Part shown: positions 3,443-7,841 of the stretch, piece after piece
Numbering within the stretch: the stretch's first letter is position 1
How the letters are laid out: the number at the start of each line of letters is the position of its first letter
Origin: a virus
Reading direction: 5' to 3' (one strand)
Length of the DNA: 20,443 bases
Virus record (IMG/VR): IMGVR_UViG_3300045994_000727
Location: 1-20,443 of that record
Notes under the pieces: model-generated
The model's input: only the letters and a program-made list of their open reading frames with translations
Told to the model about the DNA's origin: nothing
Database searches by the model: none
Made by a program: the position numbers and the translations under genes

Positions 3443-3606
3443 GGTATATAGTGTTGGCTATGTGTGTTAGTGGATGTCTGTTGGGGAATGTGACGGATTA
3501 TAACTCCTCTACAGGACAGTATCATGTAGATCAGTATGGTAGTAAGAAAGAGAAGAAAAAAATCATCAAATTTCCGAATGAGCTAAAAAAAGGGTTGGTA
3601 AAATGA
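3439..3606 (+). CDS. Small predicted lipoprotein with GTG start
   Basis: A 55-residue product starting at GTG 3439, with a strong GGAGG five bases upstream. It begins with a short basic-hydrophobic signal (RYIVLAMCVS) ending in a lipobox-like VSGC with Cys13 as the expected lipidated residue. The mature part is polar and ends in a very basic tail (KKEKKKIIKFPNELKKGLVK). The end overlaps the next start (ATGA). A tiny phage lipoprotein could be an outer-membrane spanin (Rz1-like) or a superinfection-exclusion lipoprotein. Rz1 proteins are usually Pro-rich, which this is not, and no Rz-like partner overlaps it, so I leave the role open. Confidence 0.55.
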   Translation: MRYIVLAMCVSGCLLGNVTDYNSSTGQYHVDQYGSKKEKKKIIKFPNELKKGLVK

Positions 3607-3806
3607 AGCAATATCTAGTGTTAGTAGACGAGCCTGTGATGGCTAAACTGTCTGAAGTGTTTAAAGACATTAAGTTCTTAGAGGTAGAAGGCATGTCTCT
3701 GCAGAATAACCACCAGATGTTGGTAACACCTGTGGTTAAACCTCTACTAGAGACTGAACAGCCTGTACAGGAAGAACCTCCTCAAGAAGAAGTTCCGGAA
3801 GAATAA
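3603..3806 (+). CDS. Small protein with acidic Pro/Glu tail
   Basis: This is a 67-residue protein. Residues 1-45 look like a small alpha/beta fold (MKQYLVLVDEPVMAKLSEVF, then FLEVEGM); residues 47-67 are a Pro/Glu/Gln tail (ETEQPVQEEPPQEEVPEE) that is surely disordered. The start overlaps the stop of the lipoprotein gene (ATGA) and AGGG lies upstream. No family recognised. It is followed after only 11 bases by two tRNA genes. Confidence 0.6.
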   Translation: MKQYLVLVDEPVMAKLSEVFKDIKFLEVEGMSLQNNHQMLVTPVVKPLLETEQPVQEEPPQEEVPEE

Positions 3807-3817
3807 TAATAAAAAAA

Positions 3818-3912
3818 CCCGTGGTGGCAGAGTGGCTGATTGCAGCTTGTCTTAAGACAAGTAGATCAAGGGGGAAACCTCGGTTCCGTAGGTTCAAATC
3901 CTACCCTCGGGA
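3818..3912 (+). tRNA. tRNA-Leu-like (anticodon UAA) with 8-nt anticodon loop
   Basis: The fold is a class II tRNA: acceptor CCCGTGG with CCTCGGG (one U-U mismatch at pair 5-68), discriminator A, D-stem GCA/TGC, anticodon stem GCTTG with CAAGT (one G-U), a long variable arm containing GGAA/TTCC, and a perfect T-stem GTAGG/CCTAC with the standard loop TTCAAAT. The anticodon loop TCTTAAGA has eight bases, one more than normal; reading CTTAAGA as the standard seven gives anticodon UAA (Leu). No CCA is encoded. Because CTTGTCTTAAGACAAG is self-complementary, the loop could also close up further. Confidence 0.6.
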
Positions 3913-3916
3913 ATAT

Positions 3917-4008
3917 GGCATGTTAGCTCAGGAGTAGAGCGTCATCGCGATAAGCTGAATTCGTTCAGTCATAGATGAAGGTCGTCAGTGCAAGTCTGAC
4001 CCATGCCT
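3917..4008 (+). tRNA. tRNA-Ile(GAU)-like gene interrupted by a 20-nt hairpin
   Basis: Acceptor GGCATG pairs with CATGCC, D-arm GCTC/GAGC, five-base variable loop AGGTC and T-stem GTCAG/CTGAC are all canonical. The anticodon stem TCATC (3942-3946) pairs perfectly with GATGA (3974-3978), but 27 bases lie between them. The first seven, GCGATAA, read as an anticodon loop with GAU (the usual tRNA-Ile loop is CTGATAA). The remaining 20 bases (3954-3973) contain CTGAA-TTCG-TTCAG, a UUCG-capped hairpin. Oddities: C instead of U at 33, T-loop TGCAAGT lacking U55, one acceptor mismatch. It may be a tRNA with a removable insert, a tRNA with an enlarged variable arm through a weaker TCATC/GCTGA stem, or a decaying tRNA. 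Confidence 0.6.
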
Positions 4009-4019
4009 ATGGATAAAAA

Positions 4020-4205
4020 ATGACTAAAGACTACCTTGAATTTCCTGAAGAGATTTCTCACCTATATATAGTAGAAGTGCTGGATAACAACGGGTGTCGT
4101 TTAGAAGAGATGATTATCAATCATAAGTGGAGGGTTGTACCTAAAGGAAATCCTGACAAACCTTTTAAAAAGGTAAAGATAAAAAACGAGATTTTAGAGG
4201 AATGA
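4020..4205 (+). CDS. Small basic protein of unknown function
   Basis: A 61-residue protein, beta-rich in the middle (SHLYIVEVLDNNGCRLEEMII, HKWRVVPKG) with a lysine-rich end (FKKVKIKNEI). It starts 12 bases after the interrupted tRNA, with only a weak GGAT upstream. Its last bases TTAGAGGAATGA contain both the ribosome binding site and the start of the next gene. Not recognised; a small beta-barrel, nucleic-acid-binding fold is possible but not shown. Confidence 0.55.
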   Translation: MTKDYLEFPEEISHLYIVEVLDNNGCRLEEMIINHKWRVVPKGNPDKPFKKVKIKNEILEE

Positions 4206-4950: not shown

Positions 4951-5393
4951 GCAACCCTCCTAATCCGCAGAATCCCCTAGATCCTCTATACCTCTTCATC
5001 GACGAACAGCCACCTGACACCTTCCCTAATAATCCCGACTCCTCATACTCCCATTTCACCGTCCGTCAATTTATTCCTATCGATATTACTGCAAGTTTGC
5101 CTATTATTGTGACAATCCTTAACCACGGATTCATAAATGGGCAAGCTCTTCGTGCTACTAAATTTGTCACTATGCCTTTTGCTAATGCTACAGGCATGCA
5201 ACAGCTCAATAACAGACTGTTTTACGTTCAACGAGCCACTCTACACACGTTCATACTATGCGATAATCACGCTGTACCTATCGACGGTCGGGGTTATACT
5301 CCTTATATACAGGGTGGAGAGTTCACGCTGACAGGACCTACTCTTCCTATAGTAAACCCCTCCCATTTTCCTCCTGCAGGGATTGTCAACTAA
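4947..5393 (+). CDS. Phage protein with an FCCH-like beta module
   Basis: A 148-residue protein. Residues 1-35 are Pro/Asn-rich linker-like sequence; residues 49-131 match the pattern of the small beta module often annotated in phage virion proteins as ubiquitin-activating E1 FCCH-like (NHGFINGQALRA, then GMQQLNNRLFYV, then HTFIL, then YTPYIQGG). Similar modules occur in the virion proteins at 15469 and 18036 here. This suggests a minor virion or receptor-interacting protein. It lies just before the collagen-like gene, so the two may act together at the particle surface; that is inference. Confidence 0.6.
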   Translation: MSNPPNPQNPLDPLYLFIDEQPPDTFPNNPDSSYSHFTVRQFIPIDITASLPIIVTILNHGFINGQALRATKFVTMPFANATGMQQLNNRLFYVQRATLHTFILCDNHAVPIDGRGYTPYIQGGEFTLTGPTLPIVNPSHFPPAGIVN

Positions 5394-5466
5394 TTTGTTT
5401 AATAACATCATTAAGAGCATAATGAAATTACTTAGAAGACACAAAAATTCTTCTATAGGAGGTGTT

Positions 5467-6114
5467 ATGTGTGATTGTGATTGTAAAGATGGTGCACAAG
5501 GTGCTCCAGGTATCCAAGGACCACAAGGTATCCAAGGATCTACTGGCGCTCAAGGCCCACAAGGAGTAACTGGACCACAAGGTATCCAGGGTGTTCCTGG
5601 AAAAGACTGCGAAGGTCCTGATCATGGCTGCTGTAACGAGAGGTATGCCAGTCTATACGCTTCTCAAGCTCAGCTTATCGGCGCTTATAATACTGCTACT
5701 GATGCTGTGCTTTTGGATTCTCAAAGTGCTGTGTCTGCCGGAGATTTCGATCTCTCCATGAAAAACGTCAACGGCGATATCAAGTTTCTAAAACATGGTA
5801 TCTACAACCTACGCTGGCAGTTGCAAGCTAGGATTTCTACCCCAGTTCCAGTACCAGTGCCAAGCTGGTCATTCGGTTTCTGGAGAAATGGTGTGTTAGT
5901 CCCAGGATCTATATATTCTGGCTTCACACAAGCTCCAGGAGATGACGCTTGTCATTCTACAGGAGATCTATCAATAGAAGTTTTCGCTGGTGATGTTATC
6001 AGACTTAGAAACACTTCTGTTTCTCAAGTCAACTTGAATCCTAGCGTGACAGGATCAGTATTTCCTATTACTATCGCTTCTATTAACATTCATTCTTTGA
6101 AAGAACTTCCATAA
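5467..6114 (+). CDS. Collagen-like trimeric fibre or decoration protein
   Basis: A 215-residue protein with three parts: a Cys-rich cap (MCDCDC), 13 uninterrupted Gly-X-Y triplets at residues 9-47 (GAPGIQGPQGIQG, rich in Gln and Pro), a second Cys group (KDC, then CC), and a C-terminal beta-rich domain (about 65-215) resembling the trimeric C1q/BclA-like heads that follow bacterial and phage collagen repeats. It should trimerise; the flanking Cys could staple the helix. The ATG at 5467 follows AGGAGG; a TTG start at 5383 is in frame but lacks a good site. A terminator follows. Likely a fibre or head decoration. Confidence 0.75.
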   Translation: MCDCDCKDGAQGAPGIQGPQGIQGSTGAQGPQGVTGPQGIQGVPGKDCEGPDHGCCNERYASLYASQAQLIGAYNTATDAVLLDSQSAVSAGDFDLSMKNVNGDIKFLKHGIYNLRWQLQARISTPVPVPVPSWSFGFWRNGVLVPGSIYSGFTQAPGDDACHSTGDLSIEVFAGDVIRLRNTSVSQVNLNPSVTGSVFPITIASINIHSLKELP

Positions 6115-7768: not shown

Positions 7769-7841
7769 TGGGATAACCTGGACTTGAACCAGGGACCGAC
7801 GGGTTATGAGTCCGCTGCTCTAACCACTGAGCTATTATCCC
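7769..7841 (-). tRNA. tRNA with anticodon CAU, probably tRNA-Ile2 (reads AUA)
   Basis: A regular 73-base cloverleaf: acceptor GGGATAA/TTATCCC perfect, discriminator A, D-stem GCTC/GAGC, anticodon loop CTCATAA, T-stem CCTGG/CCAGG with TTCAAGT. No CCA is encoded. The anticodon stem has one G-U and an A-C mismatch at 31-39. CAU belongs either to Met or to the isoleucine tRNA whose C34 is modified to lysidine by host TilS; the body (TAGCTCAGTGGTTAGAGCA, GGTTCAAGTCCAG) is much closer to E. coli tRNA-Ile2 as I remember it. AUA codons are common in these phage genes, which fits. It sits between protein genes inside the leftward operon, 5 bases after a stop. Confidence 0.85.

Follow-up and report, generated by a model that had tools for sequence, protein, structure and literature searches.

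A tRNA-like RNA with a conserved core and a hypervariable, non-decoding anticodon arm in uncultured phages

In mitochondria, t-elements and tRNA punctuation place tRNA-like structures between genes, where they serve end processing and not decoding. The tRNA-like small-RNA precursors of MHV68 and the mascRNA of MALAT1 are likewise non-decoding mimics, freed by RNase P and RNase Z, and a further departure from the ordinary tRNA is the staphylococcal non-translational tRNA-Gly (no G18G19; G55-type T loops). The staphylococcal molecule serves peptidoglycan (PMC4810233), and the phage tRNAs associated with theta ribozymes are transcripts with special processing (PMC10879173). No description of phage tRNA-like non-coding RNAs, of an A18-G55 pair or of phage tRNA punctuation was found in open-access papers. 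Here we describe a tRNA-like RNA (TLS) of 92 nt in an uncultured soil bacterial virus. The window, that is, the whole stretch of DNA analysed (20,443 bases), carries capsid, terminase and P22-type portal genes.

The tRNA-like RNA and its neighbours

The TLS and the genes around it comprise the following features.

3603-3806, +: upstream ORF, co-directional; no Pfam family match
3818-3912, +: tRNA-like gene of class II (Leu-like), ending 4 nt before the TLS; ARAGORN label 'tRNA-??? (ta)'
3917-4008, +: TLS, from the 5' end of the acceptor to position 73 (U); CCA not encoded
3917-3923, +: acceptor stem 5' strand GGCATGT, pairing with CCATGCC at 4001-4007 (6/7; T3923/C4001 mismatch)
3926-3940, +: D arm GCTC-AGGAGTA-GAGC, the loop ending in A18 G19 U20 A21, not G18 G19
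3942-3978, +: remodelled anticodon arm, TCATC (3942-3946) with GATGA (3974-3978), from the fold and compensatory change
3954-3969, +: apical hairpin G-CTGAA-TTCG-TTCAG-T; six pairs, the terminal one being G-U
3979-3983, +: variable loop AGGTC, standard tRNA core-contact nucleotides kept (alignment A2)
3984-4000, +: T arm GTCAG-TGCAAGT-CTGAC, carrying G55
4020-4205, +: downstream ORF, starting 11 nt past the TLS; no family match

An earlier note on this DNA had taken the element for a tRNA-Ile(GAU)-like gene with a hairpin inserted after the anticodon loop. On re-checking, the coordinates and pairing that it gave for the anticodon stem (five pairs enclosing 27 nt) were exact, deletion of 20 nt (3954-3973) did leave the loop GCGATAA, and the capped hairpin CTGAA-UUCG-UUCAG in the anticodon arm proved real, as did C33 and the odd T loop of this copy. 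Within the arm, internal-loop strands of 7 nt and 4 nt lead to the apical hairpin in the predicted fold; a 7-nt anticodon loop with U33 on a 5-bp stem is absent, and a 27-nt loop with an internal hairpin is found instead. The acceptor, D and T arms and the core tertiary contacts of tRNA are present, and these arms pair and covary; core nucleotides 8-14, 15-48, 26-44 and 19-56 are present, and 18-55 is swapped to A/G.

Over the whole window, ARAGORN reported three tRNA genes, namely 3818-3912, 3917-4008, labelled tRNA-Ile(gat), and a canonical Met gene at 7769-7841 (-); its tmRNA search was negative, and the gene is 92 nt long. The Rfam tRNA model (RF00005) scored the TLS at 36.1 bits in sensitive mode (gathering 29, E 6e-6), whereas with fast filters it reported 3818-3912 and 7769-7841 and not 3917-4008. 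Our family model R1 gave 74.2 bits, a score that is not independent because the window was part of the R1 training set. For the window copy alone, the cloverleaf with the hairpin (-27.5 kcal/mol) was nearly tied with another fold (-27.6 kcal/mol), and at the level of aligned sequences the comparative evidence settles the predicted structure as the cloverleaf with the hairpin.

The TLS sits between two co-directional ORFs and no U tract follows it; promoter and terminator scans around it were not clearly above shuffles. In the upstream class II gene (RF00005, 38.3 bits), the anticodon loop has 6 nt (CTTGT-CTTAAG-ACAAG). The TLS also adjoins tRNA-like genes that are class II or Leu/Ser-like in L004 (3444-3575), L006 (1517-1595) and L019 (8764-8857); the anticodon loops of these genes have 21, 12 and 6 nt, respectively, so that the partner gene is often non-canonical too. 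Elsewhere in the window, the predicted product of 5383-6114 has a collagen-like repeat (PF01391) and may be a virion fibre.

The core is under selection and the arm is hypervariable

A terminase-based scan of viral contigs yielded 52 loci, and a homologue 82% identical over 98 nt was found in six contigs (L011, L012, L041, L056, L077 and L090), which represent one sequence type. The arm reads TCATC GCGATAA GCTGAA TTCG TTCAGT CATA GATGA in the window and TCTTC GAGATAA GCTGGA TTCG TCCAGT CATA GAAGA in L011. The two copies differ by four two-sided compensatory changes: A3944-T3976 of the anticodon stem is T-A in L011, A3958-T3965 of the apical hairpin is G-C in the L011-type copies, and in the T stem C3986-G3998 and A3987-T3997 are T-A and G-C in L011. 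No stem-breaking change was found in L011 relative to the window. The search of related phages that the earlier note had suggested thus showed the insert kept, with compensatory changes, in the L011-type copies, and relatives with random decay and without the insert were looked for and not seen. Exact and stem-degenerate insert patterns found only L011-type copies in the viral contigs; L101-L103 also matched the insert pattern, by chance. In 50,697 cultured phages, blastn queries with the locus or the TLS returned no TLS, and the weak matches were ordinary tRNAs or chance. The conserved UCAUA 3' of the hairpin was considered as an anticodon (in intron mode, ARAGORN labels L011 Met-CAT) and was rejected, as it gives no consistent loop.

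More distant family members were sought with patterns that placed a T arm beyond the normal distance from a D arm, and with a portal-anchored scan that used no TLS feature. Together, these searches gathered about 50 distinct TLS with non-canonical anticodon arms; the patterns were biased towards D arms with TAGCTCA and T loops with GCAA. The acceptor, D and T core is common to the family; the anticodon arms differ, are mostly well paired and are non-decoding, and range from stems of 6 to 10 bp with loops of 3 to 14 nt to two-part hairpins like that of the window (L059, L045). A cloverleaf-core scan of both strands gave 190 matches in 2.06 Mb of loci versus one weak match in 2.06 Mb of shuffled sequence, and nothing in 257 Gb of bacterial genome sequence matched one strict TLS pattern. 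Ten related large terminase-group records lack the TLS, indicating that it is accessory. The TLS of the window group and of the portal group may descend from one ancestor or may have arisen by repeated remodelling of phage tRNAs.

Three alignments were scored against a hand-written structure. In A1, 97.2% of cells were paired and covariation was 0.742, versus 0.205 when shuffled and at most 0.165 when slid; in A2, which includes the window, the corresponding values were 97.0%, 0.451, 0.174 and at most 0.124. In A3, which comprises portal-set matches, was fitted to the model and contains four ordinary or weak matches, they were 96.7%, 0.495, 0.153 and 0.132. Covariation of the acceptor was present in all three alignments, and all five anticodon-base pairs varied two-sidedly in A2 and A3. 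The arms of 50 TLS were more stable than their shuffles (mean z -1.85, Stouffer -13.1) and had paired ends in 31/50 cases versus 7.3% of shuffles; p-values and counts are optimistic, as the loci are related, partly redundant and not phylogenetically independent. In the portal set, which was not chosen for TLS, core identity was 77% and arm identity, at 47.5%, equalled that of shuffled arms (45.7%). Because arm identity is that of shuffled arms while the arms pair more than shuffles do, the sequence of the arm is free and its pairing is not. Selection is thus shown on the TLS core, in its elbow contacts (below) as well as in its acceptor, D and T arms, and the anticodon arm is hypervariable, mostly structured and non-decoding.

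The elbow pair followed a rule among the tRNAs and TLS of the loci, T-loop U55 going with D-loop GG and G55 with AG. Where the loci had been fetched with no TLS pattern, the GG:AG counts were 10:0 for U55 and 0:12 for G55 (p 1.5e-6); in the pattern set, where the T-loop letter but not the D-loop pair was part of the search, they were 148:2 and 1:38. As A18/G55 also occurs in some canonical phage tRNAs (L013, L059, L071), it counts as a trait of phage tRNAs, shared and retained by the TLS.

The nine sequences of A1 (L112, L116, L117, L118, L122, L131, L132, L135 and L136) form a subfamily whose arms run in k-turn order, C-NNN-GA-U-helix-G-GA-G, which is absent from the window copy. Both GA dinucleotides are invariant in 9/9 sequences, the C-stem partner is C or U, and 3b-3n is U-G in 8/9. 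The arms agree with the k-turn consensus (C-NNN-GA / GA-G, two flanking helices), and we assign them as putative k-turns on sequence and covariation only.

Other departures from the standard arm were met in the loci. Four elongated-arm TLS (L166 2853-2930, L177 7446-7523, L175 3107-3185 and L179 7501-7580) have the apical loop GTTATGA or GTCATGA, which still looks like an anticodon loop, with U33 and the triplet UAU or CAU; this may point to an Ile or Met tRNA ancestor or to a ligand that has been retained. Inserts of about 45-55 nt lie just 3' of the anticodon in otherwise canonical phage tRNAs (His, Gln, Thr and probably Asp), in L053:273-386:-, L064:5378-5497:+, L074:7124-7244:-, L076:666-781:-, L086:12310-12425:-, L234 near 3277 (-), L239 near 2610 (+), L235:1238 (+) and L241:3159 (-). 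They consist of a closing stem and a T-arm-like hairpin (TGGTGCAANTCCA), with TA before the last loop base; the search required a GCAA motif, so that motif conservation is partly selected. Rfam named no intron at these inserts, which look like a family of tRNA introns of very small size or of nested halves of mini-tRNAs. In two phage tRNAs, at L231:678 and L231:816 (+), inserts of about 55 nt lie on the 5' side of the anticodon loop and are of a different kind from the 3' inserts.

Ends and placement of the TLS

U at position -1 was found in 42/52 TLS versus 44/86 canonical tRNAs of the same loci, against a background of 26.5%, and U occupied positions 73, 74 and 75 after the acceptor in 35, 32 and 38 of 52 TLS; CCA was mostly not encoded. 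RNase P favours U(-1), and both U(-1) and the U-rich flanks could be explained in other ways.

In the portal set, the TLS lay behind a small post-portal ORF in 25/45 loci, always on the strand of the portal. The same site holds a canonical tRNA-Asp in L204 and both a TLS and a canonical tRNA-Asp in L202. An intrinsic terminator was found at this site in 14/18 relatives without a TLS versus 4/21 TLS loci (between the ORF and the TLS), counts that come from a purpose-made scanner and a contrast due in part to the short distance, 10-20 nt, from the ORF to many TLS. Directly after several TLS come a Shine-Dalgarno sequence and a gene in the same direction. In about ten portal-group phages (L129 9361-10240 and relatives), the gene after the TLS is ParA-like and mostly starts 80-95 nt on; a recurring AAAATATATTTGATCTATAT-like stretch, which may be a promoter or a partition site, lies between the two.

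Readings of the TLS and comparison with known systems

We propose, with confidence about evenly balanced, that the TLS is a phage non-decoding tRNA mimic that host RNase P would process and that would mark transcript junctions or ends. The TLS would be transcribed within a phage operon and fold into the tRNA L; host RNase P would cut its 5' end, and RNase Z or exonucleases its 3' end, so that the element would act as transcript punctuation or as a 3'-end element and leave a stable by-product. The features that RNase P would use (acceptor-T stack, elbow and U(-1)) are kept, and those that would matter only on the ribosome are lost. Retention of the elbow matters because bacterial RNase P docks there. 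Against this proposal, the TLS is accessory, and a 3'-end role is not obvious at the window, where an ORF begins 11 nt on and there is no U tract.

The main rival, which we regard as possible but rather improbable, is that the TLS acts in trans, as a stable RNA occupying a host protein that binds the elbow or the acceptor; RNase P, tRNA-maturing enzymes and a defence nuclease that reads acceptor or elbow would be candidate targets, with the arm as a diversifying module of specificity or escape. This reading gains from the full tRNA core, from the complete turnover of the arm among phages of which many have portals about 85-92% identical, from the restriction to phages by the strict pattern and from the accessory presence of the TLS, and phage tRNAs reportedly act against defences that target tRNA (PMC10264068). 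The complete loss of arm identity could itself reflect diversifying selection for such a role. However, the fixed site and strand by the end of a transcription unit in the portal group suggest a role in cis, and a decoy for anticodon nucleases, as the earlier note had considered, fits poorly because the anticodon loop that those nucleases bind, and that a decoy would retain, has been lost. A broader and somewhat more doubtful version is a class of lytic-phage non-coding RNAs in which a constant A18/G55 tRNA frame would carry an interchangeable arm that evolves fast, whether a simple long hairpin, a capped two-part hairpin or a k-turn, as the specificity or escape module of a trans mimic directed at host RNA-binding or defence proteins. 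It is unlikely that the TLS is itself a transcription terminator or an exonuclease-blocking 3' end, formed by the cloverleaf and a U-rich stretch behind it, and not a processing site: an intrinsic terminator usually occupies this place in relatives without a TLS and positions 73-75 are mostly U, yet the window copy has no U tract and the next ORF begins only those 11 nt on, and the Shine-Dalgarno sequences just after several TLS also speak against it.

Two further readings, an excised insert and a decaying tRNA, both raised in the earlier note, lost ground; an insert that is tolerated, which that note had also considered, may still apply. That a 20-nt mini-intron (3954-3973) is spliced out of a tRNA-Ile(GAU) is now scarcely credible: its removal gives the 7-nt loop GCGATAA, but position 33 is then C in the window and A in L011, and without U33 this is not a normal decoding loop in either phage. 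In most related RNAs, moreover, the arms are extended and unrelated, and there is no 7-nt loop that excision could bring back. No intron class fits either. A bulge-helix-bulge consists of a 3-nt bulge, a 4-bp helix and a 3-nt bulge at the exon-intron junctions, whereas the inner strands here are 7 and 4 nt around a 6-bp hairpin; a group I intron spans about 200 nt or more and has group I core helices, whereas the insert has 20 nt and no Rfam intron match. We know of no matching splicing machinery in bacteria. A decaying tRNA, or a tRNA scar from integration, is very unlikely. C33, G55, the acceptor T-C mismatch, the missing CCA and the accessory presence all point that way, but the compensatory substitutions and the covariation in all arms show stems that are not drifting, G55 is matched by A18, and the strict pattern is absent from bacterial genomes. 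An integration scar was rejected, as both acceptor halves are present (5' half complete).

A sizeable group of uncultured phages thus keeps tRNA-shaped RNAs that are unable to decode, a finding relevant to the long-standing puzzle of tRNA genes in phages; tRNA scanners list them as ordinary (or undetermined) tRNAs. As a ready collection, these RNAs could also be used to test RNase P recognition, the A18/G55 elbow pair and the mimicry of tRNA by RNA in phage-host conflict. Compared with t-elements, the TLS occurs in a dsDNA phage and has a full tertiary core and a structured, hypervariable arm, and its processing is inferred. The MHV68 and mascRNA precursors are eukaryotic, and the TLS lacks microRNA-like hairpins. 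The staphylococcal tRNA-Gly keeps a normal anticodon loop, whereas the TLS has lost its loop and has no identified amino acid. Unlike the theta-ribozyme tRNAs, the TLS has no such ribozyme reported nearby by Rfam. Phage tRNAs (RF00005), including anticodon-loop mutants (eLife 2023, PMC10264068), likewise combine a cloverleaf core, a phage genome and an altered anticodon loop; the TLS differs from them in having an extended hairpin arm in place of a 7-nt loop with U33, so that decoding is impossible as folded. Finally, the A1 subfamily would place a k-turn of standard order in the anticodon arm of a tRNA-like RNA.
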